Assembly: GCA_030652575.1 (NCBI GenBank)
Contig: JAUSQI010000063.1
Span: forward strand, 62,001 to 126,000
Direction of reading: 5' to 3'
From: Stagnimonas sp.
Lineage (GTDB): Bacteria; Pseudomonadota; Gammaproteobacteria; Nevskiales; Nevskiaceae
DNA: 64,000 nucleotides
The position numbers and the translations under genes were made by a program. The notes under the pieces were generated by a model, which was given only the letters and a program-made list of their open reading frames with translations, had not been told where the DNA came from and did no database searches. Below, piece after piece: positions 37,097-62,295 of the stretch (position 1 is its first letter; every line of letters begins with the position of its first letter).

Positions 37097-38053
37097 CTAC
37101 TTTTTGAAGATGCCGACGATCTCCTCGGCCTGGCTTACCAGCAGTGACGTGATGTTTCTCTGGTCCATCAGCGCAATGGCATCCGAGACGCGTGTACCGG
37201 CGGGCACCACGATGGGGTCCTTGGACATCAGGTAACCCGCCGTCTTCTCGAACACCTGTTTTTCGTACTTATCCAGCGCACGGCGAATGTCACCGTCCGT
37301 GATCAGCCCCAGCCCGGCCTCGCGGCGCACCACCACCAGACCAAGCATGCCGCTGGTCATGATGTCGATGACCTTCGTGAAGCTGTCGGTCTCATGCACA
37401 AACGGTAGATTCTTCTTCGTCATCTCGTCTTCCACCTTGCGCAGCAATCTGCGCCCCAGACTGCCGCCGGGATGAAAACGGGCGAAGTGCTCCGGCTGGA
37501 AGTCGCGCGCCTTCATCAACACCACCGCAAGCGCATCGCCCATTGCCAGCGTAGTGGTGGTGCTGGATGTCGGCGCCAGCTGCAGCGGGCAAGCCTCTTC
37601 ATCGACACCGACGTTGAGGTGGCAATGCGAGGCTTTGGCCAGAGTGGACTTCGGGTTGCCGGTCATGGCGATCACGAAGTTACCGTTGTCGTGCAGGAAG
37701 CTGATCAGCTTGAGCACTTCCTCCGTTTCACCGGAATTGGAGATCGCAATGAAGACATCCGACGGCGTGACCATGCCGAGATCGCCGTGGTAAGCCTCGC
37801 CCGGATGCATGAACAAGCTGGGGGTGCCGGTGCTGGCCAGCGTCGCCGTGATCTTGCGCGCGATGATGCCGGACTTGCCCATGCCGCACAGAATCACGCG
37901 GCCGGTGGATTTCAGGATGCCTTCGATGGCGTCGTAAAAGCTCTTGTCCAGCCTGAGGCCGGCTGCCTGCACGGCACGTGCTTCGATCTCGAAAACCTTT
38001 TGCCCGGCGGCGATGAAATCTGCCTGGCGGGATGCCTCTGCGGTCACGCTCAT
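37097..38053 (-). CDS. kdsD: Arabinose-5-phosphate isomerase
   Basis: Encodes 318 residues: SIS domain (about 35-170) with GMGKSGIIARKITATLASTGTPS, and AISNSGETEE, followed by two CBS domains (about 205-318). It converts ribulose-5-phosphate to arabinose-5-phosphate, the first step to Kdo. The start at 38053 overlaps the kdsB stop (ATGA), although the frame is open further upstream. KpsF is the capsule-locus form of the same enzyme, and its position with kdsB, kdsA and a KpsC-like gene fits that role. Confidence 0.95.
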   Translation of the reverse strand: MSVTAEASRQADFIAAGQKVFEIEARAVQAAGLRLDKSFYDAIEGILKSTGRVILCGMGKSGIIARKITATLASTGTPSLFMHPGEAYHGDLGMVTPSDVFIAISNSGETEEVLKLISFLHDNGNFVIAMTGNPKSTLAKASHCHLNVGVDEEACPLQLAPTSSTTTTLAMGDALAVVLMKARDFQPEHFARFHPGGSLGRRLLRKVEDEMTKKNLPFVHETDSFTKVIDIMTSGMLGLVVVRREAGLGLITDGDIRRALDKYEKQVFEKTAGYLMSKDPIVVPAGTRVSDAIALMDQRNITSLLVSQAEEIVGIFKK

Positions 38054-38814
38054 GCCTGCTGCTCCATTTCTTGAATCAATCGGGTCACGCGCTCGACATC
38101 CGCGGGGGTATCCACCCCATGCGGTGGGCAGGCTGACCATTGCAATACGCCGATGCGGATACCCAGCCACATCGCGCGCAACTGCTCGAGCTTCTCCATC
38201 TGCTCCAGCATGCACAACGGCGTGGCAACCACGCGCTTGAGCGCCCCCACGCGGTAGCCATAGATGCCGATATGGCGCTGGTAGTCCGCCAAGGGCCAAT
38301 CGGACTGCGGCTTGTCACGGCAATACGGGATGGTGGACCGCGAAAACATCAGCGCGATGCCGGCTTGGTCCGTGACGAGCTTGACGACGTTGGCATTAAA
38401 AAGTTGCTCGACATCCTCGACCGGTGCGCTGATGGTGACCATCTGCAACTCGGGCTTGCCTTGGCAGTAGGCCAGGAATGCCTGCAGCAGATCGACCGGC
38501 ACCAGCGGCTCGTCGCCTTGTACATTGATGACCAGATCTCCATCGGCCAACCCGCGCAGGGCGGCCACTTCGGCCACACGATCGGTACCGGATTCGTGCT
38601 TGGGGTCGGTCATGGCGAACGGAATGTCGATCTCGCGCAGATGGCTGGCGATGCGCTCGTCATCCGTTGCCACCACGATATCCGCCGTAGGCAATGCCGA
38701 CTGCACCCGCGCGTAAACGCGCGCGATCATCGACCTCCCAGCGAGATCCACCAACGGTTTGCCCGGTAGCCGGCTGGAGGCATAACGAGCCGGAATCACC
38801 ACACATGTTTTCAA
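38050..38814 (-). CDS. kdsB: 3-deoxy-manno-octulosonate cytidylyltransferase
   Basis: Encodes 254 residues from a TTG start. N-terminal VVIPARYASSRLPGKPLVD is the CTP-binding signature, VVATDDERI and NVQGDEPLV are the other conserved stretches, with HIGIYGYR near the centre. It makes CMP-Kdo, the donor for Kdo transferases. Coupled to kdsD by ATGA overlap; KpsU is the capsule form of this enzyme. Confidence 0.95.
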   Translation of the reverse strand: MKTCVVIPARYASSRLPGKPLVDLAGRSMIARVYARVQSALPTADIVVATDDERIASHLREIDIPFAMTDPKHESGTDRVAEVAALRGLADGDLVINVQGDEPLVPVDLLQAFLAYCQGKPELQMVTISAPVEDVEQLFNANVVKLVTDQAGIALMFSRSTIPYCRDKPQSDWPLADYQRHIGIYGYRVGALKRVVATPLCMLEQMEKLEQLRAMWLGIRIGVLQWSACPPHGVDTPADVERVTRLIQEMEQQA

Positions 38815-38854
38815 GACGTTTCTCGCTTCGTGTCGGGCTAGTCGGCGCGGCGAC

Positions 38855-39733
<879 letters not shown>

Positions 39734-46656: not shown

Positions 46657-49600
46657 TCACCATTTTCTTTTTTTATCAATGTAATCAACCAATTCTTCTA
46701 CTTCAACGGTTTCATTTTTCTCTGGATGAAAATAACGACTGGACTCAATATATGAGTAATGGAAAACATCTTCAATTTTCCTTTTCCTCGTTCTCCCGTT
46801 CACAGCCACTTTATCTTGGGTGATTCCCCAGCCCGCATAAAAAGGAGCTCCATAGCAATGTACGATCTTGCCGGCCATCAAGGCTTCAAACCCCATGCCT
46901 GAAGTCACCACATAGACCTCATCAACCAATTCAAACAGAGAGTAGGGATTGACATCGAAGTTAATAAGAAAAAGATTGTTGATGTATTTTCCAGCGCCAC
47001 CCATGTAGAGGCGTTCGTTACTGTAGTAGCTGGATTTTCCCCCTTTAATCGCATCAGGATGCTGCTTGATCATAATATCGCAGTCCGCGTGCTCTCTCAA
47101 AACATCGTTCAACATGCGCTCGTAGGTCTTTTCATCTGCAAGGCCTGAAGCCACAGACTGATCGCCGAATCGCTGGTCGACCAATAGCACTTTCTTTCTA
47201 CCCGGCGTGCCGATATTGAGCGGGATATTGGGGGCATGGTTATATTTGGAGACGCGCGTCTCGACTATTTTCTGGATGGCTTTTCTACTGCGTGCCAACT
47301 CAGCCTTGGTTAGAGCGGGGCCATCTTCCAAAAGCCGTTGAAGTCTCGAAGGCTTGGTGGCGTCGTAGTAAGACGTGGTGTCGTCCATGATGATCGACAG
47401 CCCAGGCTCGCCGGATAAACCAATGTCCAGAGAGCGGATGAAGCCGTCCTCAATGATCAGCAAGGGTTTGCCCAATGCACGCTGCACAGCCGCCTGCTTG
47501 ATTTTGCCGACGTTGGGGGTGATGCCCCACTGGATGAACACATCGACAGACGCCAATTCCTTGAGACTTTCGAGCCCCTTGCTGCTGACCACGCGCCTGC
47601 GCGCACGGATCATGGGCAGCAAATACTTCTGGACGTTGTTCCACACGTGTTCGCTCGATGGGATGGCGATGACGTCCAAGGCATCGGTGCGAGAGAAGAT
47701 CCTGTCGATCGCTCTGGGCCTCAGGGTGAGGCTGCTTGGATTTGCGGCGAACTGCTTGAGGTAATCGGCGATTCTGCGACAAGCCTGGCCGTCGAAGGCG
47801 CCCGTCGAGAACATCTGTGCGGCCCAATTGATGCCCTCTACGGACGGCTGCCACTCGCCAGCCAGAAATTGGTCCATCTGCACAGCCAACTCTTCAGCGT
47901 TGCGTACAGCGGGAATGCCGGCAGATTCCCAGATCTGCGTGAAGTCCGTGTATTTCGTCGAGAGCGGAATACGCCCCATCAGCATGCCTTCGAAAAGCAT
48001 CGTGCTGTTCACGGAAGCGACGATGTCGGAATGGAAAAGTGCTTCTTCGGCACTCACGAGGTAGCAAAGCGCGTCATCCACAGCCGCGCGGCTGGACTGC
48101 GCGATGCGCTCCTGTAGTGGCTTGCCGAGAATATTGTCCTTGGAGGGCGGCAATCGAACGATCAATTGCAGGTTCTTGGCATCCGCACAATCCAGAAGGT
48201 CTGCAATGGCCTTGCGCTGCGACTCACGGGCCGTTTTGACATCCAGCTGCGAGTCCAGTGGCTGTGATGCGAATAGGATGATCTTCAGAGCCGGATCTAG
48301 CCCGAACAGCCGGCAGAACTGCTGCCGCGTCAACTCGGGCTGATAGTTGAAGTAGCTATCGAACTTCGGCGCGCCAACCGCGATGAAGCGCTCTGCGGGG
48401 TAGCCTCTTTCGACAAAAATGTCCTTCTGCAGCTGGCCCCAACCGAGGATCACATCCGCAACAGGCACCGAGGCATGCGCGGTGATGTCCCAATAGTATT
48501 TTTCTCTGTCGACGAAGACGGATTCGTGCGGAATGAGAATGCGCGGAATCTCCAGGTCTTCACAGACGCCCGCGATGAGTCGCATGACGGGCGCCCAGTC
48601 GAACGTGAAGACAATGCCTTTGATCTTCCCGCGAAGGGAGACCAGCCGCCGCAGAATCATCTTGCGATAGGTGTGCGGGTTCTCCCTCGCGAACCGCAGC
48701 ACTTCAGAGCGCACCTTGTCCAGGTTTTTCACGAAGTCGAGAGGTGCTAAGACGTAATCTTCTCCGCCACCGATCTTCGCGATCAGCTTGTTGCCATGTT
48801 CGGCAATCCAGGGGATGTACAGCAGAACCGGCTTGTCGCTACTGAGCGCGGCGGTCAGCTCGGCGCCAGGCAAGCCGTTGAACCACTCGGGAATCGGGCC
48901 TTCGGGCAGTGTCTGCGTAGCAGCAACCGCGATCTTCGCAAGAATTGCGTCGTCGTCCTGCTTGGGTGCTGGCATCGACGCCTTGCTTTGCAGCAAGCGC
49001 GGCACCATTGTTTCGATCGTGCTCTGCACCTTGTACAGCGGATCGACATACACGGGGTAGAGAATGTAGGCAGCCGCGAATACCTGCTCCACACTCAGTT
49101 GACGTTGCCGCCTTTCGGGCGGCTGGCGGTCGTCGGAAATTCCCCATCCGGCGTAGAAAGGCGACCCCAAGGTCGTGACCTTGATGTTGCGCAGCAGGGC
49201 TTCGAAACCACCCAGCGAACTGATCGTGTAAACATGATCAACCGTTTCGAGTGCCTGCGAGATCGGCAGGTCCTGCGCCAGCACATCGCAAAGATGGCGG
49301 ACTTTGTCGGGATTGGAAGCAGTAGGCCGGGCCTTACTCATCACTTCAGGGTGTGGCTTGAAGATGATTTGAGCGCCCGGATTCTCCATTGCGGCGATCA
49401 TCACCACATCGTTATTGCTGTAGTGACGCGGATTAGCCAACTTTACTGAAGGCGCATATTCCGATTGGCCCAAAACCAGCACACGGGGACGGTTTTTTAC
49501 GCCATAGACAACTTGAACATCTGAAACGCGGGATGAGTGATTGAATTTGCTGACTCCTTTCTCGACCAGCAACTCGATTGACAGCCGGGCGCGCTGCATC

Positions 49601-52293
49601 AACTCGATGTCGGCATCAAAATCGTATTGCGCGATTATGTTCTCGAGATCGGATGCCGTCGAACTGTCAAAAAATGGCACGGCACCATCGAGAACCAACG
49701 AATAGGGCGGCGTATTTGCTTGGGGCAACTCGACTGAGCGAATGAAGCCCTCACCCAGATAAAAATTTTTTCGCTTGCTCGATCTTATGTATTGCCTTAA
49801 GTGAAGGGGAATAGCGCCTTGGCAAGTGATGAATTCAGAACTCCGATTCTGGTCGATGCCTTTCTTGAATTTCTGGGAAAACTCTTTGGCATTCGTGGTG
49901 AGGGGAATATGTATGAATCTTCTGTTGGGAAACCACGAGCTCATCAGTGATTTGTACGGAATCTCACCAATGAGATAAGTAACCGTCTGTTTCTGAGTCA
50001 ATTTCGACTCAGCTGTCGGTTCAGGCAGTTGCAATTTGGTGGGCTGCATCGAAGTCAGCATCCGCTGCAGCATCAGCGCAGGGTTTTCACTGACTACTTT
50101 GTATAAAGGATCAACATAGATGGGCGCTGCCAAACAACAGCCCACGAACAACTCGTCGATGCTCAATGCGCGGCCGCGTGCTAATGCCTGCCGATCTTCC
50201 GTCAGACCCCATCCTGCGTAAAACGGCGTGCCGAACACTGTGACCGGTTTACCGCGCAGTAGCGCTTCGAAGCCCCCGATGTGGCTGATGGTGTAGACGC
50301 GGTCGCTGCCTTCAATTTGCGCGCTGATTGGCTCTGCGAGCGAGAGGATCGAGCAATAGCTGGCAACTTGGGACGGATCGGACAGCGCCGCTCTTTTCTT
50401 CTTCAGATTGGCAATATCCACCCTGTAGACGATCTCGGCACCTGGATGCTCCATGCGCGCCATCATGACCAGATCGTTGCTGGTAAACCGTTTCGGCCCT
50501 TGTGAATTGACGGCGGGGTGATCTTCGGGCTGGCCAATGACCAGAATCCGCTGAGGTCGGTTTGGGTCCATTTCGGCCGCGTGTGCCGCCGAGTTTCGAT
50601 CCAGAATTTCCAAGACGCCCTTGCGGAGTACATCGGCTTGCGCCATCAGGGCTTCGTCGTGCACGAAATCGCCTTCATCCAGCGTTTCCATGAGATGGGT
50701 TCTGCCATCACTCTCTCGGCCCGTGACGTCTCTCTCCACATTCCAGGCGGCTGGCGTGAAGGCGCCTTTACCGATACCCAGTTGGTGCACCACACCGGGT
50801 GTGACCGTCCGTATTTTGCCGCCTGCCTGCTTGATGAGGTGACTGATCTGCTCAGGCAACCGCCCGCCCCACACGTAAACGTCGACCCCCGGCACACAGA
50901 CCTTGCCTGCCCATGCTTTCTTGAAGACCGCCGATGTCACCGACCTGTCGATGACATGGATGTCGGCGTCTTCAAACAAGGACTGCAGTACGTCGTAAGA
51001 ATAGGGGGCGCCAAAGAAAACGACAGTTTTCACCAAGGGGGCCGTCGCCTCCTCCTCGGCACCGTGATCCTCGACGCTGCTTGGCTCACTCTGACCCAAT
51101 CTTTCAATGACTTCGCGCAGCGTCATTGCAGCACCGGTAGCGGGCTCGAAATAGCTGGCGTATTTCAGATAGGCAGCAGCAAACAGCTGAGTCAGCGTCA
51201 GCACCCGCGAGCGTCGTGCCACAGCTTGGCGGCTGTCTGTAAGCCCCCAGCCCGAGTAGAACGGCGCTCCCAAGGTCGTGACCGGGATGCCACGGATCAA
51301 GGCCTCGAAGCCACCCAAGGAGCTAATGGTGTAGACCCGGTCGACACCCGTCAGCGTGTCATCGAACGACATGGGCTGACGGATGATCAGGGCAAGATCG
51401 GCAACATCGTCGGGCTTGGACAATTCGGCGCGCTTGCCGGCCAGGACGTCTGGATGCACCTTGTAAATGATCTGTGCGTCCGGATTCTCTGCAGCCGCCA
51501 GTCGTACAACATCGTTATTCGTGATGCGCTTATCGCAGCCGTATACAACGGACTGGTCATCCTCGACTTGGCCGATGACGAGTATGCGCGCGCGGTTCTT
51601 GGCGCCGTAGAGCTTCTCGGCCAGCCGGGTGGGAGACTCGTTGTATTTGGTGACCCTACGCGTGCAGATGAGCTGAAGACATTCCTCCGCCTCCCGCATC
51701 AGTTCCGGATCGGAATCGAAATCGTAGGTCGCCAACAAGGTTTCGAGATCGGAGGGCTTTCGGGCATCGAAATAGATGCCCGTCCTGTCGATGCAGATCG
51801 AATACGGGAGAACGTGATTCGCACCGAGACCCTGTGACCGGACGAATCCATCCTCCATCCGCATGATCTCGATGCCATGCTCCTGAGCATAGCTTTCGAG
51901 ATCTTCCGGCTGGAACAGGCCCCATACGATGAAGACGCAGCCTTTCGACTCCTTGATCCGACGGTCGTGGCGAGCAACGGTATCTCGGTAGGCGATGTAT
52001 TTGAACTCGAACTCTGGAAAGCAGCTTTGCAGAAAAGCCCGCTTCCAAGGAGCGATATTGAAGGCCCAGGCCACTCGTATCTGTTCTGCCGTGCTTTCAT
52101 CGCGCTCCGGTGCTACGCCAGATAAGGAAACTGATTCCCACAGCCCGCCTACAACTTCTGGTTCAGTCAATTTCCCTGTCTCCGCTTCAGCACGGGGGAG
52201 CGCGCCGTTCTGCTCCTCTGCACCTGATGGCTCGTCGCCTTGGCCCAAGGTCTGCTTCGTCGACATGGACGCGTTACCGGCAAATTGACTCAT
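46657..52293 (-). CDS. Giant multi-module capsule glycosyltransferase: four KpsC-like modules plus one GT-B domain
   Basis: Encodes 1,878 residues from ATG 52293 (GGGAT upstream; the frame is open further to a GTG at 52368). Four units related to KpsC beta-Kdo transferase modules are visible: M1 75-400 (EDGFVRS 147-153, KVHPDV 278-283, SSLGGFEAL), M2 420-745, M3 770-1100 (GEGFIRS 847-853, KPHPEV 979-984), and M4 1535-1878 (EDGFIRS 1615-1621, KQHPDA 1743-1748). All share PFY(A/S)GWG. M2 has lost both signatures (TPGV and YRVD). Between M3 and M4, about 1150-1515, is a different GT-B-like domain with IPHESVFVD, GAPKFD and NSTMLFEGMLMG. KpsC proper has two modules and about 670 residues. The kds genes close by support CMP-Kdo use. 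Confidence 0.85.
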   Translation of the reverse strand: MSQFAGNASMSTKQTLGQGDEPSGAEEQNGALPRAEAETGKLTEPEVVGGLWESVSLSGVAPERDESTAEQIRVAWAFNIAPWKRAFLQSCFPEFEFKYIAYRDTVARHDRRIKESKGCVFIVWGLFQPEDLESYAQEHGIEIMRMEDGFVRSQGLGANHVLPYSICIDRTGIYFDARKPSDLETLLATYDFDSDPELMREAEECLQLICTRRVTKYNESPTRLAEKLYGAKNRARILVIGQVEDDQSVVYGCDKRITNNDVVRLAAAENPDAQIIYKVHPDVLAGKRAELSKPDDVADLALIIRQPMSFDDTLTGVDRVYTISSLGGFEALIRGIPVTTLGAPFYSGWGLTDSRQAVARRSRVLTLTQLFAAAYLKYASYFEPATGAAMTLREVIERLGQSEPSSVEDHGAEEEATAPLVKTVVFFGAPYSYDVLQSLFEDADIHVIDRSVTSAVFKKAWAGKVCVPGVDVYVWGGRLPEQISHLIKQAGGKIRTVTPGVVHQLGIGKGAFTPAAWNVERDVTGRESDGRTHLMETLDEGDFVHDEALMAQADVLRKGVLEILDRNSAAHAAEMDPNRPQRILVIGQPEDHPAVNSQGPKRFTSNDLVMMARMEHPGAEIVYRVDIANLKKKRAALSDPSQVASYCSILSLAEPISAQIEGSDRVYTISHIGGFEALLRGKPVTVFGTPFYAGWGLTEDRQALARGRALSIDELFVGCCLAAPIYVDPLYKVVSENPALMLQRMLTSMQPTKLQLPEPTAESKLTQKQTVTYLIGEIPYKSLMSSWFPNRRFIHIPLTTNAKEFSQKFKKGIDQNRSSEFITCQGAIPLHLRQYIRSSKRKNFYLGEGFIRSVELPQANTPPYSLVLDGAVPFFDSSTASDLENIIAQYDFDADIELMQRARLSIELLVEKGVSKFNHSSRVSDVQVVYGVKNRPRVLVLGQSEYAPSVKLANPRHYSNNDVVMIAAMENPGAQIIFKPHPEVMSKARPTASNPDKVRHLCDVLAQDLPISQALETVDHVYTISSLGGFEALLRNIKVTTLGSPFYAGWGISDDRQPPERRQRQLSVEQVFAAAYILYPVYVDPLYKVQSTIETMVPRLLQSKASMPAPKQDDDAILAKIAVAATQTLPEGPIPEWFNGLPGAELTAALSSDKPVLLYIPWIAEHGNKLIAKIGGGEDYVLAPLDFVKNLDKVRSEVLRFARENPHTYRKMILRRLVSLRGKIKGIVFTFDWAPVMRLIAGVCEDLEIPRILIPHESVFVDREKYYWDITAHASVPVADVILGWGQLQKDIFVERGYPAERFIAVGAPKFDSYFNYQPELTRQQFCRLFGLDPALKIILFASQPLDSQLDVKTARESQRKAIADLLDCADAKNLQLIVRLPPSKDNILGKPLQERIAQSSRAAVDDALCYLVSAEEALFHSDIVASVNSTMLFEGMLMGRIPLSTKYTDFTQIWESAGIPAVRNAEELAVQMDQFLAGEWQPSVEGINWAAQMFSTGAFDGQACRRIADYLKQFAANPSSLTLRPRAIDRIFSRTDALDVIAIPSSEHVWNNVQKYLLPMIRARRRVVSSKGLESLKELASVDVFIQWGITPNVGKIKQAAVQRALGKPLLIIEDGFIRSLDIGLSGEPGLSIIMDDTTSYYDATKPSRLQRLLEDGPALTKAELARSRKAIQKIVETRVSKYNHAPNIPLNIGTPGRKKVLLVDQRFGDQSVASGLADEKTYERMLNDVLREHADCDIMIKQHPDAIKGGKSSYYSNERLYMGGAGKYINNLFLINFDVNPYSLFELVDEVYVVTSGMGFEALMAGKIVHCYGAPFYAGWGITQDKVAVNGRTRKRKIEDVFHYSYIESSRYFHPEKNETVEVEELVDYIDKKRKW

Positions 52294-52570
52294 GAGATCC
52301 CTAAAACTGACATTTGAAATGTATTTTCCCAACCGAGAGGCCGCTCTTTCGAGAGCCACTCTCAGCACATTTTAGACGCGATGCTTCAAGCATCCGGTCA
52401 TGCATCCCCCGACCAATCCCGGCGGCATGTGCTCCCAGTCGATTCGGGCACAAAATGTTGCACGTTCCAAGCCAAATACATCTGTGCAAAAACCATGAAT
52501 CTGGGCAAATGTGATGCAAGCCCAACCAGATGCTTTAATCGGCTATGCCCGAATTCAAGCTCACTTGGCA

Positions 52571-53836: not shown

Positions 53837-55021
53837 CTAGTTGCCGAGTGACGACGCGCCACGAAGGTCGAACACCACGCCAGTGAACTGGCGGATCAGC
53901 GAGCCGATCTTCGCCGCGTTAACACTGCGGGTGTTGGACACATACAACATGTCGCCGTCGCGCATTTCCATTCCCTTGGCAATGAAAAAGCCCTGCGGCT
54001 CGCTCAAGTCCACCTGGTAGATGATGGGCACGGTGCCGTTGGGCATGCGCGCTGCGGTGTCGGCAAGCGCCCCGAGCGCATCGGCGTTCTCGAAGCGGAA
54101 TACGAAGACGGCCGACGGGTCGGCCTTGTCGTCTGACAACCCGCCCGCGCGTGCCAAGGTCTGCGCCAGATTGACGCTGGCCTGCTGCAGGGGGATCTCC
54201 GAAGGCCGCAGCGCCGCGCCGAAGACCGTGACCGACCGAGGACGGTAGGTCAGCTGGATCTGATCCCCCGGGAACACATAGGCGTTTTCCTCCATGCTGT
54301 CGATCACACTTTGCAGCTGCACCGTCTTGGTCTGGTCGCCGCGCGTCAGTTGCAGCAGCACATCCTGCGGCTCATGCATGGGCCCGCCGGCCAGATTGAT
54401 GACATCCCGCACGCGCTCGCCGGCCAGGCTCAAGGGCGCGCGTCCCGGCAGCTTGATGTCACCGCCGATCGTGACGGTGTTGAAGACGTTCTGCACGACC
54501 GAGACCACCGCTTGGGGCTGGATCGCCTTGCCTTGCAGATTCTTCTCAATCTCTTTTTGCACCTCGGTCGGCGTCATGCCGACCACTTTCAGGCTGCCGG
54601 CAAACGGCACGGTGATTTCACCATCCCGGTTCAAAACCAGCCTGGGAAACTGCCCCACCGAGCTGCCGCTCGAACCACTGCCGCCACCGGCACCGGCGCC
54701 AAAAAGGCCATTGCTGCCCGGCTCGTAGATCTGGATGGCCAGCACATCGCCGATGCCAATGGTGTCGGACACCGGCTTGTCGGCCCCCAGCGATGAGAGC
54801 GTATCCACCGACACCGCCTTGAGCTTTTCGATGATCTGCCGGTCGGCGCGCACGATGCTGAGCGGAATCGCCGGCTCGGTCTTCTCGGGCGACTCCGGGA
54901 AATCGCCCGGCCCAGGGCCGGCCCTGGGAATGGCACAGCCGCCGATACAAAGAGTGAGACCCATCAGCAGCGCTGTGGGCAGCGCGCCGAATAGCGATGG
55001 TTTCGTGGGTAACGACATCAT
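53837..55021 (-). CDS. Polysaccharide export outer-membrane lipoprotein (Wza/KpsD type)
   Basis: Encodes 394 residues with a lipoprotein signal (LTLCIGGC, lipid Cys at residue 29). The Poly_export domain has SDTIGIGDVLAIQIYEPG and DGEITVPFAGSLKVVGMTPTE, followed by SLBB-like repeats (TVTIGGDIKLPGRAPLS, VTVFGAALRPSEIPL). Such proteins form the outer-membrane channel for capsule or O-antigen export, here pairing with the KpsE-like protein of the ABC system. A Gly/Ser-rich stretch near residue 110 is unusual. It sits between two glycosyltransferase genes. Confidence 0.92.
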   Translation of the reverse strand: MMSLPTKPSLFGALPTALLMGLTLCIGGCAIPRAGPGPGDFPESPEKTEPAIPLSIVRADRQIIEKLKAVSVDTLSSLGADKPVSDTIGIGDVLAIQIYEPGSNGLFGAGAGGGSGSSGSSVGQFPRLVLNRDGEITVPFAGSLKVVGMTPTEVQKEIEKNLQGKAIQPQAVVSVVQNVFNTVTIGGDIKLPGRAPLSLAGERVRDVINLAGGPMHEPQDVLLQLTRGDQTKTVQLQSVIDSMEENAYVFPGDQIQLTYRPRSVTVFGAALRPSEIPLQQASVNLAQTLARAGGLSDDKADPSAVFVFRFENADALGALADTAARMPNGTVPIIYQVDLSEPQGFFIAKGMEMRDGDMLYVSNTRSVNAAKIGSLIRQFTGVVFDLRGASSLGN

Positions 55022-55025
55022 GACT

Positions 55026-56393
55026 TCATCCCTTGTTTATAGCTGGCAGCGCATGCGATACAGCTACTGTATCGGCACCCCTTGGCACCATACTGTGTGC
55101 TTCGACATACATCTGAATATTGCTTTCCGAGCCGTGGCTCATTTCAGCACCAGATGAAGAGCTGGTCGATGGCGACTTTAGCCGCTCTGCCAGATCAACA
55201 TAATTGCCAATATCGAAAAACTCGATCACGCCAGGGTAGTAGCGCGCAAACTGCAAAAAAGCATGCGTACGGGTCGCCACGATGCGGCAGCCCATCTCCA
55301 CCGCCATGCTCATGGGCCCGGACGACGATTGCCCCACTTCCTGGTACGGCAGCACCACGGTGTCGCATATGGCCATGCCGGAGGTGAACTGCTCATCCGG
55401 CAGCGACCCCATGAAGTGGATGCGGCCGGTCAGGTCTTTCAACCGACGCTCGCGCAATTCGCGCGCATGCGAAGCACCGGGCGTGAGCGCGGCCACGCTG
55501 TTCTGCTTGCCCATGGTTTCCTTCAGCACAGCGACATCAATGCAGGCCTCTTCGAGCAGCAACTCGATGTAGGGGTCCAGCGACTGCCGCAGCTTGATCT
55601 CGTTGGGATGCACACCACCGAAAATCAGCAGGTGATAGTCCTGCGGCAGGTAATGCATCGCACGTATCGCGGTATCAAACCCCTTGTAGCTGCCGAAGAA
55701 GCCGAACACGCCGATCAGCTTTGCATCCTCCGGCACATTGGCCAGCAGCACGAAGTCCGATTTCTGCGTGCGGGCACGAATGGCACGCACGTCGCTCTGC
55801 GAGAGAAACGAAAGCGGGTGGTCGTAGACGTGCTGGAACTGGTTGACGTATTTCATCAACCGCATGTCGCGCCGGTTGTGCACGATGATGCTCAAAGGCT
55901 TGATGGACTGGACCTTGCGCAGCAACTTGTAGATGCCGTTGGCCAGCACCTTGTTGCGCGCGTGCTCCACCACCCGGTCGAACGCATATTGCAGCTTGAG
56001 CTTTGCCAGCTCCTTGGCAAACGAGCGGAACTGAAACGATTGCGGCTCCAGCACGGTATGGAAGGTGATCGAGATACGTGGCGCCGCTGAAACCAGCAAC
56101 TTGAAGCGACGGTAAATGTCCTTGATGTCACGACCCAGCGTGCCGTGCTCAAGCTGGATGTTCACCCAGTCGAAGTGCTGCAATTGATCCGCAATTTCGC
56201 GGATGTGCTGGTCGCCCAGCTTGCGTACATGGCCGTGCTTGTTGAGCAGGAGGTACTGATCCAGGTCGAAGACCGTAACCTCAAAAACGCTCTCGAGCTG
56301 CCGGATCAAAAACCGGGTGTACGCGGCAATGCCGCACAACTCGTCAAACGTGGAAACGATGGCTAGCTTTGGCTTTGTAGAACCGGCATTCAT
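55026..56393 (-). CDS. GT4-like glycosyltransferase
   Basis: Encodes 455 residues from ATG 56393 (MNAGSTKPKLAIVSTFDELCG); a TTG at 56426 overlapping the upstream stop (TTGA) is the alternative and has GGGAAG upstream. N-terminal CGIAAYTRFLIRQLE is the acceptor-side loop. VFGFFGSYKGFDTAIRAM begins the donor half, and IHFMGSLPDEQF with SSSGPMSMAVEMGCRIVATRTHAF is the nucleotide-sugar region. No membrane segment. Four bases separate it from the export lipoprotein gene. Donor unknown. Confidence 0.82.
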   Translation of the reverse strand: MNAGSTKPKLAIVSTFDELCGIAAYTRFLIRQLESVFEVTVFDLDQYLLLNKHGHVRKLGDQHIREIADQLQHFDWVNIQLEHGTLGRDIKDIYRRFKLLVSAAPRISITFHTVLEPQSFQFRSFAKELAKLKLQYAFDRVVEHARNKVLANGIYKLLRKVQSIKPLSIIVHNRRDMRLMKYVNQFQHVYDHPLSFLSQSDVRAIRARTQKSDFVLLANVPEDAKLIGVFGFFGSYKGFDTAIRAMHYLPQDYHLLIFGGVHPNEIKLRQSLDPYIELLLEEACIDVAVLKETMGKQNSVAALTPGASHARELRERRLKDLTGRIHFMGSLPDEQFTSGMAICDTVVLPYQEVGQSSSGPMSMAVEMGCRIVATRTHAFLQFARYYPGVIEFFDIGNYVDLAERLKSPSTSSSSGAEMSHGSESNIQMYVEAHSMVPRGADTVAVSHALPAINKG

Positions 56394-56422
56394 GATTTCA
56401 TGGGCGCCGCCTTCACGATCAA

Positions 56423-57997
56423 TCAAGGTGCGTTCTTCCCGGCGGCTTTAAGGGTTTTCTTGGGGATGGCAATGATGTCGACGATATCGCCCACCACGTC
56501 ATTGATGCCCTTGTAATACGGCCGTGCAGGCAGCCCGGATTCGAACTGTGTCCATACATCGTACAAGTCGAGCGGGATGAGACCCACCAGACTCTCGAAC
56601 GTGGCGCCAAACGAACCGATGAACTGCGGATGCACTTCCACCAGCACTACGGGGCGGCATTCACGCAAAAGTTTCTGCGCGCCTTTCAGCACCTCGCCTT
56701 CATAGCCCTCGACATCGATCTTGATGAAGGTGGGGCTGTATTCCAGGTAGGAGTCCAGCGGCACCTGCTTCACTTTGATCACATCGCCCTGTTCGCTCGC
56801 CATCAGGTTCTGCGCGACGTTTGAAACCTCGATCTCGCCGAAATCGGGGCCTACACCCACCCACTCGCAAAAAACGTTCTTCATGCCGTTGACCTTGGCA
56901 TTGGCCTCGATCTGGATGTTGTTTTGCGGAAAGGGGTCGAAGGCGAACACCATCCCCTCCGGCCCCACCAGATGCGCCAGGTGCACGGCAATACGTCCCG
57001 CATGGGCACCGCAATCCATCACCACACCGCCTTTCTTGACGAGCCCGGCCTTCTCGAAAAAGCCGATTTCATGGTCGGTGGCCTCACCGTACCAATGCAC
57101 CGAGTTGGCAGTGCCGATCACAACGGGGTAGGTCCGAGTGCTATCACCTCGGCTGACAATGTAAGGGCGGCAAAAAGCCTGAACACCACCGAATTTATGG
57201 GCCTTGAGATGCTCGATGGCCTCCTCTTCAAACTCTTTCAGCACCAGTTCGGCAGCATGCTCTTGAGCAGACCCGCTAGGAAAGATATAGGGCGGCGCGC
57301 CGATGCCGTCTTTGCTCGGCGAGAAGCGCTCGCCGATGAATAATCTCGAAAACCTTACCGAAAACTGCTCGCCCTGACTGATCGGCTTGAGAAACGAGAA
57401 TCTGAATTCGAGGCTCGGTCGGCCCGTCGCAGCCTGCAAATCATGTGCAACGAGAAAGTCCATCTCAGTGCGCATGTCGTAGGTGGTATTGCCGCCCAGA
57501 TACTCATCCCTGCGGAATACCGCACAGATAAACTCCAGCCGCTCGGGCTGGGAAACCGCGATGCGCGCGCCGCCAATGGTGGCGAAGCCGGTGGGCTCCA
57601 ATGGTGGCGTTTCGAAGAAAAAACGGATGTTTAGGCAGGCGCCCGGCACCGCAGCCAAATCGCCGGAATAGCGGACCAGCAATTCCGGGCCCTCGGCAGT
57701 GCTGCTCCACAACACCTCGGCCTGGCAACTCGACTTATCTCCAGGCCAGTGCTCAACGCCGACGGAATAGCCGATTTTTTCCGGATTGCTGTACAGGGTC
57801 ACTGGCAGGGTTTCCACCGGCGCATAGACCTGCACTTGCCCATCAATGAGCTGGTCTATGCAGCTGATGACTAGCGGATTCGTGGCTTGCTGCTGCACCT
57901 CTTGCGCCGACGTGATTACGCCCGCTGCGGATACGGCAGCTTTCCCGGCTTCGCCAGATATCTTTTCAGCAAACCGTGTCCAAAGCTTTTGCAGCAT
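56423..57997 (-). CDS. FkbM-family methyltransferase with extra N-terminal domain
   Basis: Encodes 524 residues from ATG 57997 (a TTG at 58042 is possible). The C-terminal FkbM domain (about 320-510) has the SAM-binding motif VVMDCGAHAGRIAVHLA, the FAFDPFPQN acid loop, LMASEQG and FIKIDVEGYEGEVLKGA. The first about 300 residues form a beta-rich domain of no recognised family. FkbM enzymes methylate hydroxyls of sugars or polyketides, so it may O-methylate the capsule chain. It diverges from the transporter operon. Confidence 0.85.
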   Translation of the reverse strand: MLQKLWTRFAEKISGEAGKAAVSAAGVITSAQEVQQQATNPLVISCIDQLIDGQVQVYAPVETLPVTLYSNPEKIGYSVGVEHWPGDKSSCQAEVLWSSTAEGPELLVRYSGDLAAVPGACLNIRFFFETPPLEPTGFATIGGARIAVSQPERLEFICAVFRRDEYLGGNTTYDMRTEMDFLVAHDLQAATGRPSLEFRFSFLKPISQGEQFSVRFSRLFIGERFSPSKDGIGAPPYIFPSGSAQEHAAELVLKEFEEEAIEHLKAHKFGGVQAFCRPYIVSRGDSTRTYPVVIGTANSVHWYGEATDHEIGFFEKAGLVKKGGVVMDCGAHAGRIAVHLAHLVGPEGMVFAFDPFPQNNIQIEANAKVNGMKNVFCEWVGVGPDFGEIEVSNVAQNLMASEQGDVIKVKQVPLDSYLEYSPTFIKIDVEGYEGEVLKGAQKLLRECRPVVLVEVHPQFIGSFGATFESLVGLIPLDLYDVWTQFESGLPARPYYKGINDVVGDIVDIIAIPKKTLKAAGKNAP

Positions 57998-58346
57998 GGG
58001 TAATGAGTTCCAATCTAAAATGACATTGTGCGGCAGCGACAATCAGCAAGTCGCCGCTTCCGTTTGTAGGTATGCCCAGTCCCGATTGTAGATGCTGCAC
58101 TCCACGCAGGCCCAGTGGAAAACCAAGTCTCGATATGTCCCAGTGCACAAAAGTCTTTGGCTTGGGTGAAGTTGGCATTTTCAGGTCGGCTTTGCGTTTG
58201 CAGATACCAGTCCACTCCAATCGACATATGCTTGAAACCAAAGCGGGTGCAATGCTTGCAGCACTGAACCCAAGGCTTCAATTTTCACATTACAGTTGCG
58301 GCATTCAGAGCTTCGTCATCGCAACTATCAGTTCAGGCCCGACACG
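57998..58346. other. Divergent intergenic region between FkbM and kpsM-type genes
   Basis: About 350 bases of mixed composition separate two operons read outward. It must hold promoters for both, but no convincing -10/-35 pair was identified. A five-base inverted repeat TTGCG/CGCAA with a long spacer (about 58296-58323) is present. No gene with a ribosome-binding site is seen. Confidence 0.4.
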
Positions 58347-60371
58347 TTGAACCCCACCCATAAAAGGATTCACGAGCTTCGGCGGTTACTGGCCGCAAAC
58401 CCCGATGATCGCGTCGCGTTGGCCGAATTGATTGGTGCGCTGGCCGACATACGCCGCGCGTCTCAGGTGCTCGAACTGCTGCCCCGGCTTGAGCCTTTTA
58501 CCGTGCTGGATGTGGAGTTGCTGCGCCGGGTCGTCAGCATGCTGACCGCAGGCGCGCATCTCGAAAAAGGCCTGGAAATTGCCGAGAGCCTCATTGCACT
58601 GACACCAGACGATACCGATCTTCTGATGCAGCTCGGCTCGGATTTGATGGCCTCGAAAAAGTTTGTAGCGGCCGCGGAGCTGCTCGGCAGGGTCATCGAG
58701 CTTGAACCCAGGAACTCCGTGGCATTGCGATTCAGGAGTTCCGCGCGTTTGCAGGCCGGCGAAGTCGAGCTGGCAATGGCCGATGCGGTGCTTTGTGTCG
58801 ATCTCGCACCGGAGAATTCGGAGTTCAGAATCCATCTCGGCGGCCTGCTGCTGCAAGCCAAACGGTTCAACGAAGCACAGCCGCACCTCGAAAAAGCGAT
58901 TGCCATCGACCCCACCAACGCGCATGCACACAATGTGCTGAGCAGCGTGTTTGTCTCCATGGGCCTTGTTGGCCGCGCCATTGATGAGGCGGCGGCGGCC
59001 GTCAAGCTGGAACCCAGCCTGGTTTCTGCCCAAATACATCTTGGCAATCTGCTCACCATGCACGGGCGCTACCGGCAGGCGATCGATGTGCTGCGACTGT
59101 CGCTGCGAGCAGACCCCGAGAACCTGACGGCACGGCGGGTTCTGAGTGGCGCGCTGGCTGCCGCCGGCAATCTCTCAGAAGCTATCGATGAGGCTTTGGA
59201 GCTTGTAAGACTCGCGCCTGAGACCCCGGAATATCAAATGCATGCCGGCGGCCTCATGGTCAGCGCCGAGCGGATGGCAGAAGGCATTGTGCTGCTGCAA
59301 AAAGCCTGCGCGATGGCCCCTGCCATTGGTCATGGCTGGCGCACGCTCAGTGGGGCAGAGCTGGAACTTGGCCATTTCGACGACGCTGAAGCCCATGCGC
59401 TCAAAGCTCTGGAATGTGAGCCCGACAACGCCGATTACAAATCGCATCTGAAAAATCTGCGTCGCAAGCGGGATACCGATATCACCCAAGCCCTGAGCAT
59501 TGCGATTGCCGATATTCAATCGACAACGCAATACACGCCGCCCTTGAATGTGCCACGCCGCCTCGACGCCGACCGCAAGTCGCACCCGATGCTTGAGGCA
59601 TTCAGGACACAGCGCCGGGTCGTCATGGCACTGGTGCTGCGGGATATCCGGGCGGCTTACGCAGGCTCGCGTTTGGGTTACATCTGGGCGTTGATCGAAC
59701 CCATGACCCATCTCCTGACTTTGGGCATTGTCTTCAAGATACTGAATCACAGCACGCCGCCCATCGGGGACAACCTATACCTTTTCTATTTGACCGGGAT
59801 CCTGCCGTTCTTGATGTTTATTCACACGGTGGGCCACATGATGGATTCCATTCCCGGGAACCATAATTTATTGCAGCTGCCGCTGATCAAGCCGATGGAT
59901 TTATTGGTTTCCCAAAGCCTGATGTCGCTGTGGCGCGAAACAACGGTTGTCATTATTTCGTTCTTCATTTTTTTCTGCATTATCGGCATCAAGGCCATTC
60001 CGACCGAGCCAGTGCGTTGCGTACAAGCGCTTTTCTGTGTCTGGATTGCGGCAACCGGCTTTGGAGTGTTGAGCTCGATGGTCGCATCGGCCTTTCCAAC
60101 ATGGGAAAAAATATGGCCCGTCATCACGCGCCTGATGTATTTCGCATCCGGCATTTTTTATATCCCACAAAATATGCCGGAGTGGGTCCGCGATTATCTG
60201 ATCTGGAATCCAGTCCTGCAGGGCATTGAATGGTTTAGAAATGGCTTCTTTAGAAACTATTCCCCCCATTGGCTGGACACTTATTACGTGCTTGCCTTTG
60301 GCATCAGCTGCTTATTGATCGGCTTGGCACTGGAAAGAATCCAGCATCGCCGCATGACCTACGAATTATGA
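58347..60371 (+). CDS. kpsM: TPR domain fused to KpsM/Wzm-type ABC-2 permease
   Basis: Encodes about 674 residues from the TTG at 58347 (another TTG at 58296 gives 691); no ATG is available near the N-terminus. Residues about 20-390 are TPR repeats (LIALTPDDTDLLMQLGSDLM, AIAIDPTNAHAHNVLSSVF and others). From about 415 comes a normal ABC-2 permease with six helices: LVLRDIRAAYAGSRLGYIWALIEP, a first helix with THLLTLGIVFKIL, later FASGIFYIPQNMPEWVRDY and GIEWFRNGFF. KpsM proteins are usually about 260 residues with no TPR. The stop overlaps the kpsT start (ATGA). With KpsT it would move the finished glycan across the inner membrane. Confidence 0.88.
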   Translation: MNPTHKRIHELRRLLAANPDDRVALAELIGALADIRRASQVLELLPRLEPFTVLDVELLRRVVSMLTAGAHLEKGLEIAESLIALTPDDTDLLMQLGSDLMASKKFVAAAELLGRVIELEPRNSVALRFRSSARLQAGEVELAMADAVLCVDLAPENSEFRIHLGGLLLQAKRFNEAQPHLEKAIAIDPTNAHAHNVLSSVFVSMGLVGRAIDEAAAAVKLEPSLVSAQIHLGNLLTMHGRYRQAIDVLRLSLRADPENLTARRVLSGALAAAGNLSEAIDEALELVRLAPETPEYQMHAGGLMVSAERMAEGIVLLQKACAMAPAIGHGWRTLSGAELELGHFDDAEAHALKALECEPDNADYKSHLKNLRRKRDTDITQALSIAIADIQSTTQYTPPLNVPRRLDADRKSHPMLEAFRTQRRVVMALVLRDIRAAYAGSRLGYIWALIEPMTHLLTLGIVFKILNHSTPPIGDNLYLFYLTGILPFLMFIHTVGHMMDSIPGNHNLLQLPLIKPMDLLVSQSLMSLWRETTVVIISFFIFFCIIGIKAIPTEPVRCVQALFCVWIAATGFGVLSSMVASAFPTWEKIWPVITRLMYFASGIFYIPQNMPEWVRDYLIWNPVLQGIEWFRNGFFRNYSPHWLDTYYVLAFGISCLLIGLALERIQHRRMTYEL

Positions 60372-61018
60372 TCACGCTGCAGAATGTGACTAAATCCTAC
60401 CCCGCTGGGGATGGACGCAAAGTGGTTCTCGATAATGTGTCGGCTGTGTTCCCCGATGGCACAAACATCGGGATTCTGGGCCGCAACGGCACTGGCAAAT
60501 CAACCATGATCCGGCTGCTTTCTGGCGCGGAACTGCCGAATAAAGGACACATCAAGCGTCAAGGACGCGTGTCCTTCCCTATGGGTTTTGGCGGCACCTT
60601 CGCCCACCGCCTTTCGGCGCGCGAAAATATCGTGTTTCTGGCGCGCGTCTACGGCATGCCGATTCATCAAAGCGTGGAGTTCGTGCAGGAGTTTGCCGAA
60701 GTCGGCCATTATTTCGACATGCCGATGCATACCTATTCTTCGGGCATGCGGGCGCGGCTGATGTTTGCCGCGAGCTTGGCGATCGATTTCGATTTTTACC
60801 TGATCGACGAAATCACGGAGGTCGGGGACAGCCGCTTTCGCGAAAAAGCCGTCATGGCCTTTCGCGAACGCATTCGCAAATCGAGCATCATTCTCGTCTC
60901 GCACAACTACCACACGATGCGCGACATCTGCCAGGTCGGTGCCATCCTCGGCAATGGGCGACTCGATTTTTACCGCAGCCTTGAAGAGGCGATCACTGTT
61001 TATGAGACGATGCCGTAA
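60368..61018 (+). CDS. kpsT: Capsule/O-antigen ABC transporter ATP-binding protein
   Basis: Encodes 216 residues: Walker A GRNGTGKST, signature YSSGMRARLMFA (in place of LSGGQ, as in KpsT), Walker B FYLIDEI and the switch His in LVSHNYH. The length fits KpsT without the carbohydrate-binding C-terminal domain seen in some Wzt. It is coupled to the permease by ATGA and to the next gene by TAATG. It energises export of the polysaccharide. Confidence 0.95.
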   Translation: MITLQNVTKSYPAGDGRKVVLDNVSAVFPDGTNIGILGRNGTGKSTMIRLLSGAELPNKGHIKRQGRVSFPMGFGGTFAHRLSARENIVFLARVYGMPIHQSVEFVQEFAEVGHYFDMPMHTYSSGMRARLMFAASLAIDFDFYLIDEITEVGDSRFREKAVMAFRERIRKSSIILVSHNYHTMRDICQVGAILGNGRLDFYRSLEEAITVYETMP

Positions 61019-62295
61019 TGAGCGCCGCCCCCATCAAGACTGAAAAAGTGCCGAAAGAGATTGTTGCGCGTAAAGAGGATAAGAAAGCTGGCCAGGTGCC
61101 TGTCGAAAGTAATTCTGGGGGCCCGATTGCCCGCAGAGTCCAGGTAATCAAGGACTGGACCTGGAAAGCGCTCGCCGATACCGAAGAGCCCGACCGGCTG
61201 CATTGGGGTCGTGTGATGCTCGTGTTGGTCTGTCTGCTGCCGACCTTGGCCGCGGGTATCTATTACGGCTTCTTCGCTGCCGACCAGTACGAAGTGGAGA
61301 TGCGCTTCAACGTGGTGCCGCTGGATAAATCCCTACGCGACGCCAGTTCGATGCTGGATGGCGGTGGCGGCAAGTCGGCGGCTTCGGCCTTTGCGCTGAA
61401 CTCTTTTGTAGTGACGCAGTACATCGCCAGCCGTTCGATGGTCGATCAGATCAATAAGGAGATCGACATCCGCAAGATGTTCTCGACGGAAAAGGCCGAC
61501 GTGATCGAGCGTCTGGACCCGGAAGCCTCCATCGAAAAACTCGTGAAGTACTGGCGCAAGAAGGTCGACGCCTATTTCGAATTGACCAACGGCTCCGTGA
61601 TCGTGACCGTGCAGGCGTTCACGCCGGAGGATGCGCTGCTGCTGTCGCAGACCATCCTGAAACTGTCGGAACAAGCGGTCAACGAGCTGTCGGCGCGCGC
61701 GCGCGCGCAGGTCATGGGGTTCGCCGAGGCGCAGGTGACCAAGGCCGGCAACCACTTGCTCGAAGAACAGAAGGAGCTGCTCGCCTTCCGCCAGAAAGAG
61801 AAGGTGTTCGACCCGGTGCAGGATGCCAGTGCAAACACTTCTTCGGTCGCAAGCCTGCGTCAGGGCTTGGCGCAGATGAAGGGCGAAGCGGCGGCACTAT
61901 CCAAATACATGAGCGAAGCCTCGCCCAACCTCGAACTGTTGCGGGCCAAGATCAAGGCGTCGGAAGACCAGCTGCGCAGCGTTCAGGCCTCATTGCCCGC
62001 CACCGGTGGCAGCAGCGGCGGCTCCGCCGCCACGATGTCTACGTATGAAACCCTGAAAGGTCAGGTGGCCATCGCGCAGACGGCTTACCAGACCGCACTC
62101 GCGTCATTGGTGTCTGCCAGTCGCTCCGCCGATGGCGAAACGATTTATCTCTCGACTTTCATCCCGCCCTCTCTGCCCATCGAGTCCACCAAGCCGAAGC
62201 GCTTGAAGATCGTCTTCCTGGTGTTCATCTCGACGTTCGCTTTTTGGGCGATTGGCACTTTGATTGCGTACTCAATAGGCGACCATCGCACTTAA
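61018..62295 (+). CDS. kpsE: Capsule export inner-membrane protein (KpsE/BexC-like, PCP-3)
   Basis: Encodes 425 residues with a Lys-rich N-terminal tail, TM1 at about 66-87 (GRVMLVLVCLLPTLAAGIYY), a long periplasmic part with coiled-coil stretches (AQVTKAGNHLLEEQKELLAFRQKE, LELLRAKIKASEDQLRSVQ) and TM2 at about 396-418. This is the polysaccharide co-polymerase type 3 layout that links the ABC transporter to the outer-membrane lipoprotein. The start overlaps the kpsT stop (TAATG). Confidence 0.93.
   Translation: MSAAPIKTEKVPKEIVARKEDKKAGQVPVESNSGGPIARRVQVIKDWTWKALADTEEPDRLHWGRVMLVLVCLLPTLAAGIYYGFFAADQYEVEMRFNVVPLDKSLRDASSMLDGGGGKSAASAFALNSFVVTQYIASRSMVDQINKEIDIRKMFSTEKADVIERLDPEASIEKLVKYWRKKVDAYFELTNGSVIVTVQAFTPEDALLLSQTILKLSEQAVNELSARARAQVMGFAEAQVTKAGNHLLEEQKELLAFRQKEKVFDPVQDASANTSSVASLRQGLAQMKGEAAALSKYMSEASPNLELLRAKIKASEDQLRSVQASLPATGGSSGGSAATMSTYETLKGQVAIAQTAYQTALASLVSASRSADGETIYLSTFIPPSLPIESTKPKRLKIVFLVFISTFAFWAIGTLIAYSIGDHRT

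Follow-up and report, generated by a model that had tools for sequence, protein, structure and literature searches.

A TPR domain fused to a KpsM-type capsule permease is conserved across genomes and genomically linked to a GT4 glycosyltransferase

In the window, the 64,000-nucleotide stretch of a Stagnimonas sp. contig analyzed here, a single open reading frame on the + strand (58347-60371) encodes a TPR domain of ~375 residues joined by a short linker to a complete KpsM-type ABC-2 permease. This TPR-KpsM fusion occurs in 14 further genomes (15 with the window), which belong to two families of another class of the same phylum; it is inherited and under selection, and it is linked in the genome to a GT4 glycosyltransferase. 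We propose that the TPR arm keeps this dedicated GT4 at the exporter's cytosolic mouth and that the two travel as a module with KpsT and KpsE, a reading to which we give roughly an even chance of being correct.

The fused product is 674 residues long, compared with ~260 for a KpsM without an extra domain, and is thus a variant of the KpsM type. Its frame stops at 60371 and has two TTG starts, at 58296 and 58347; since neither is preceded by a clear ribosome site, the exact start codon is unsure, and a search for a promoter-like site upstream found none. The N-terminal part (58347-59588) comprises the TPR domain (residues ~1-375) and a linker to residue 414, close to the roughly 400 TPR residues given by the first-pass annotation. 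Pfam assigns it to TPR families (TPR_19, E=3.3e-24), tandem TPR repeats score above the cut-off, and eight 34-residue repeats run in register from residue 90. AlphaFold models this part as some 10 helix pairs followed by a long capping helix (362-395), and its pLDDT, taken in blocks of ten residues, stays at 81-95 as far as residue 370. The best structural match is the TPR region of O-GlcNAc transferase (1w3b; Z 30.9 over 376 residues, rmsd 7.3), a generic TPR superhelix similarity from which we draw no functional conclusion. No TM-like stretch is present in the N-terminal part of any of the 15 fusions, and the arm is therefore most likely cytoplasmic, as had been predicted.

The permease part (59589-60371), which includes the N-terminal interface-helix region, matches ABC2_membrane at residues 443-652 of the longer (58296) frame (E=1.7e-16; 60.8 bits against a gathering score of 26.9). 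Residues 5-255 of its 260 align with residues 20-269 of the solved KpsM chain 8tsh_C (E=5.6e-23). It scores 108.7 bits with the NCBIfam KpsM model, against a cut-off of 300, and 89.5 with the VexB model, against 297; judged by these profiles, the window permease is KpsM-type and lies outside the NCBIfam KpsM equivalog. A crude hydropathy count gave 4 TM helices in the window permease and 2-6 across the 15 fusions, where six are expected of KpsM, and the AlphaFold model of the permease part, built on a three-sequence alignment, has a pLDDT under 50 and is not usable. TPR-KpsM would presumably be a working transporter.

The fusion surfaced at several taxonomic levels. Within the window's order, 20 of 85 genomes (its own included) carry a related permease at E<=1e-10, and the TPR arm is found on the window permease only, with none in the 84 other sampled genomes. 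In a sample of the phylum (398 genomes), the two best matches outside the window's own genome, in G497 and G452, are both fused. The family of G497 has the fusion in 5 of 199 genomes; a sample of its class added fusions in G1264 and G1335, and 9 of 75 genomes in the family of G1264 are carriers. A scan of named genomes with a single protein as query found no carrier, and the same scan with an alignment found two, a Hyphomicrobiales MAG and a Proteobacteria MAG. Among plasmids, none of 369 matching records covered 80 percent of the query, and no fusion was seen. Long open frames also lie ahead of several unfused permeases (L109, L053, L101, L088, L059, L098, L110, L034, L031, and L111, and likewise those of G882 and G729); we set these aside by eye, as they look out-of-frame or non-coding. 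A full-text search, with subscription journals mostly outside its coverage, returned no paper recognizable as dealing with a TPR-KpsM fusion.

All 15 fusions match three TPR families together with ABC2_membrane, and all 15 overlap kpsT by 4 nt (ATGA in 14, GTGA in 1). Across five close pairs, dN/dS is 0.06-0.13 for the TPR domain, 0.05-0.09 for the permease, and 0.05-0.43 for the linker. The possibility that an internal start yields the TPR domain and the permease separately, leaving a fusion without meaning, begins from an in-frame ATG at 59589 that would open a permease of normal length, but we consider it highly improbable: no Shine-Dalgarno-like motif accompanies any start codon from -45 to +20 residues around the permease start in the window, just 1 of 15 fusions has a candidate internal start with such a motif, and the fused frame is kept in every carrier. 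Because of the shared domains and kpsT overlap, the low dN/dS, and the rarity of internal-start motifs, either an assembly artifact or a separate permease is very unlikely. The first-pass annotation had described a TPR domain ahead of an ABC-2 capsule permease, and Pfam and the 15 genomes establish this as a real fusion in one frame; the two outcomes it had named as fatal, absence of the fusion from all relatives and an internal start yielding a separate permease, were answered by 14 fused relatives and by the lack of a credible internal start in the window.

When 92 permease parts are placed on a tree, a single branch (99/95) separates the 15 fusions from the rest, and one fusion event therefore fits the data and would be their simplest reading. 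The window fusion is placed beside those of G1335, G1370, and G1423, which belong to another class (99/88). Apart from duplicates, this tree omits as many as 14 named rows, comprising long branches together with their group. An 84-row tree from which duplicates alone were dropped likewise united the 6 fusions known at that stage, and an 81-row tree, lacking duplicates and as many as 11 rows of this kind, agrees for the members known by then. Since the 84 other sampled genomes of the window's order do not have the fusion, horizontal gain by the window's lineage is suggested and would again be the simplest reading; we infer the direction of transfer from the number of carriers. A further, distinct set of KpsM-type permeases, extended at the N-terminus by ~150-490 residues in frame, was observed in the window's own family (L006, L010, L014, and L040, from G029, G023, G012, and G020). 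These extensions apparently share, by eye, a GW-containing stretch; the proteins have no Pfam match outside the permease and grouped together on the permease trees. In three fusion genomes, G1264, G1335, and G1429, an unfused KpsM-type permease is also present elsewhere (L133, L178, and L177, respectively), and the fused permease therefore need not be the sole such exporter in them.

The fused gene stands in an operon with a KpsT-type ATPase (60368-61018, +) and a KpsE-type (BexC/CtrB/KpsE) inner-membrane export protein (61018-62295, +; TIGR01010, E=1e-62), and homologs of both adjoin the fusion in 14 of 14 relatives. The ATGA overlap at 60368, where kpsT begins, agrees with the normal stop/start coupling read from the sequence earlier. 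On the - strand lie genes for an FkbM-family methyltransferase (56423-58042), of which 2 of 14 relatives have a homolog close to the fusion, the GT4 glycosyltransferase (55026-56426), a KpsD/OPX-type outer-membrane export protein with Poly_export and SLBB matches (53837-55021), and a giant KpsC-like protein of 1903 aa with five PF05159 stretches (46657-52368). Further away (37097-39709, -) are genes for SIS-CBS, CTP_transf_3 cytidylyltransferase, and DAHP_synth_1 proteins, which we take, following established knowledge, to have Kdo-pathway roles; the window capsule thus seems to have a Kdo-type supply. The cluster also contains a second Capsule_synth-like protein (872 aa, 34453-37071, +), of which residues 729-820, close to the C-terminus, partially match PF05159.

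The GT4 glycosyltransferase tracks the fusion across genomes. With a threshold of E<=1e-40, fixed ahead of the result, this GT4 turns up in 5 of the 199 genomes in the family of G497; these coincide with the 5 fusion carriers, and none of the 194 others, 43 of which have a related permease, has it. Repeated in the family of G1264, the test found GT4 in 10 of 75 genomes, namely all 9 with the fusion and 1 of the 66 others (G1406), whose contig starts inside a permease followed by KpsT, KpsE, and GT4, so that the N-terminal part of that permease lies beyond the contig end. The hypergeometric values for this co-occurrence, 4e-10 and 8e-11, overstate independence, as the fusion genomes are related. 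Within fetched neighborhoods, which are of unequal length and in some cases cut by contig ends, GT4 accompanies the fusion in 12 of 14 relatives, whereas none of 21 unfused KpsM loci has it (E<=1e-6); in G452 and G981 it is on another contig. Among the window cluster proteins tested against these neighborhoods, GT4 is the only synthesis protein beside most fusions. The GT4 copies are roughly 28-50 percent identical to the one in the window, a figure that does not track permease identity in every genome. A PDB search with the window GT4 gave no relative at E<=0.001. The most compact arrangement is found in G1429 (L193:7822-12746), where GT4, TPR-KpsM, KpsT, and KpsE form a four-gene module alone among housekeeping genes, flanked by trpE-like/SurA-like genes and by enoyl-CoA hydratase/GSP-synthase genes; its permease is the one most similar to the window's (46 percent). 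Near the fusion in several relatives we also observed either RTX-repeat proteins or an ABC/HlyD pair resembling type 1 secretion (L113:6636-8474, L114:11853-14087, L155:2439-6034, and L194:3636-6866), including an RTX serralysin-like gene directly upstream of the fusion in G981 and G828.

The permease resembles KpsM of the KpsMT-KpsE exporter (PDB 8tsh), to which it aligns nearly end to end and whose KpsT-, KpsE-, and KpsD-type partners have counterparts in the cluster, but it differs from that 274-residue protein in carrying ~400 extra TPR and linker residues ahead of the interface helix. In PMC11041684, this amphipathic N-terminal helix of KpsM is described at the cytosolic face, where it moves and constricts the entrance of the canyon as the exporter cycles. 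We propose that the cytosolic TPR arm was grafted directly ahead of this helix, which lies at the canyon entrance in solved KpsMT. Each KpsM2T2 exporter would then have two arms, and these might hold the dedicated GT4 at the entrance, thereby placing a chain-starting or chain-finishing enzyme where the glycolipid is loaded. The fusion would have arisen once, GT4, TPR-KpsM, KpsT, and KpsE would travel as a module, and in the window this module would have been placed inside a Kdo/KpsC-type capsule cluster. Against such docking, joint transfer of a cluster producing a single type of glycan could also account for the co-occurrence, and within the TPR domain the concave positions are no better conserved than the convex ones, with mean entropies of 2.28 and 2.09, respectively, in 10 representatives of the 15 fusions.

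TPR domains have been described in other ABC-transporter-dependent capsule systems. In VexE of the Vi capsule, the N-terminus forms a TPR superhelix comparable in size (11 repeats, residues 1-385), and the same system uses the TPR region of TviD to recruit TviE (PMC9597891). There, however, the superhelix belongs to a soluble acyltransferase and has a basic inner face, whereas here it belongs to a permease and its inner face is not basic; the VexE-type LPLAT acyltransferase domain is absent from the C-terminus of TPR-KpsM, which has ABC2_membrane instead. In the Cps3D/Cps7D polymerases of Actinobacillus pleuropneumoniae, the TPR domains are needed for linker elongation and, unlike the exporter-borne arm described here, are fused to glycosyltransferases (PMC11666461).

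Alternatively, the arm could dock another protein (KpsT, KpsE, or another cluster enzyme) or self-associate to cluster exporters, with GT4 linked to the fusion merely through a one-glycan cluster. This reading, which we judge rather unlikely, draws on the constant company of KpsT and KpsE homologs and, for self-association, on the dimerization of Cps3D TPR domains described in PMC11666461. Unfused KpsM works with KpsT and KpsE as well, though, so that docking of either would leave the arm unexplained, and docking of another enzyme is opposed by the position of GT4 as the sole synthesis protein, among those tested, beside most fusions. Less probable again is a role for the TPR superhelix in binding nascent glycolipid or polysaccharide and feeding it into the canyon. 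The predicted placement of the arm at the canyon entrance would suit this role, and a product channel has been proposed for the VexE TPR domain in PMC9597891. Yet the strongly basic inner face described there for VexE contrasts with an N-terminal part that is net acidic in 13 of 15 fusions, the two exceptions having frames that seem to include upstream non-coding sequence. Of 48 concave positions in the window's domain, 3 are basic and 4 acidic, and the groove has no special conservation that would support a ligand site. With an acidic domain whose concave side shows neither basic character nor special conservation, TPR-KpsM suits the channel idea less well.

The first-pass annotation had suggested that the arm docks synthesis enzymes such as the giant KpsC-like protein, joining synthesis to export. 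Joining synthesis to export is still fair as a general idea; the giant KpsC as the docked partner is not supported, and we consider it very unlikely. The giant KpsC, the Kdo-supply-like genes, and the fusion do share one cluster in the window, and the KpsC/KpsS domain PF05159 is present in 4 of 14 fusion relatives (G497, G452, G981, and G1429). It is, however, missing genome-wide from the other 10, which comprise G939 (98 percent complete), G828 (79 percent complete), and 8 of the 9 fusion genomes of the second family. Compared with 14 of 26 genomes picked for having an unfused KpsM, 4 of 14 shows no enrichment and is not significant either way (Fisher p 0.19). No homolog of the giant KpsC was found in the 14 fetched fusion neighborhoods, while a KpsC homolog adjoins the unfused KpsM in the control G954 (L135). 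In G1429, PF05159 is on the contig of the second, unfused KpsM; in G981 it lies with GT4 near the start of another contig and the fusion lies near a contig end, so they are possibly close. Since PF05159 is absent from most relatives and the homolog is instead beside an unfused KpsM, KpsC docking is unlikely as the general purpose of the arm, although it may still apply to the window by itself.

Returning to the proposed docking of GT4, a broader and more tentative possibility is that GT4, TPR-KpsM, KpsT, and KpsE constitute a self-contained synthesis-export machine whose exporter recruits its own glycosyltransferase, free of KpsC/KpsS in most carriers and plugged into a Kdo/KpsC pathway in the window. 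The four-gene module of G1429 offers a small system in which coupling of synthesis to export could be tested by removing the arm. A TPR arm covalently attached to an exporter, and linked across genomes to one glycosyltransferase, bears on how the finished glycolipid is handed over in ABC-transporter-dependent capsule systems.
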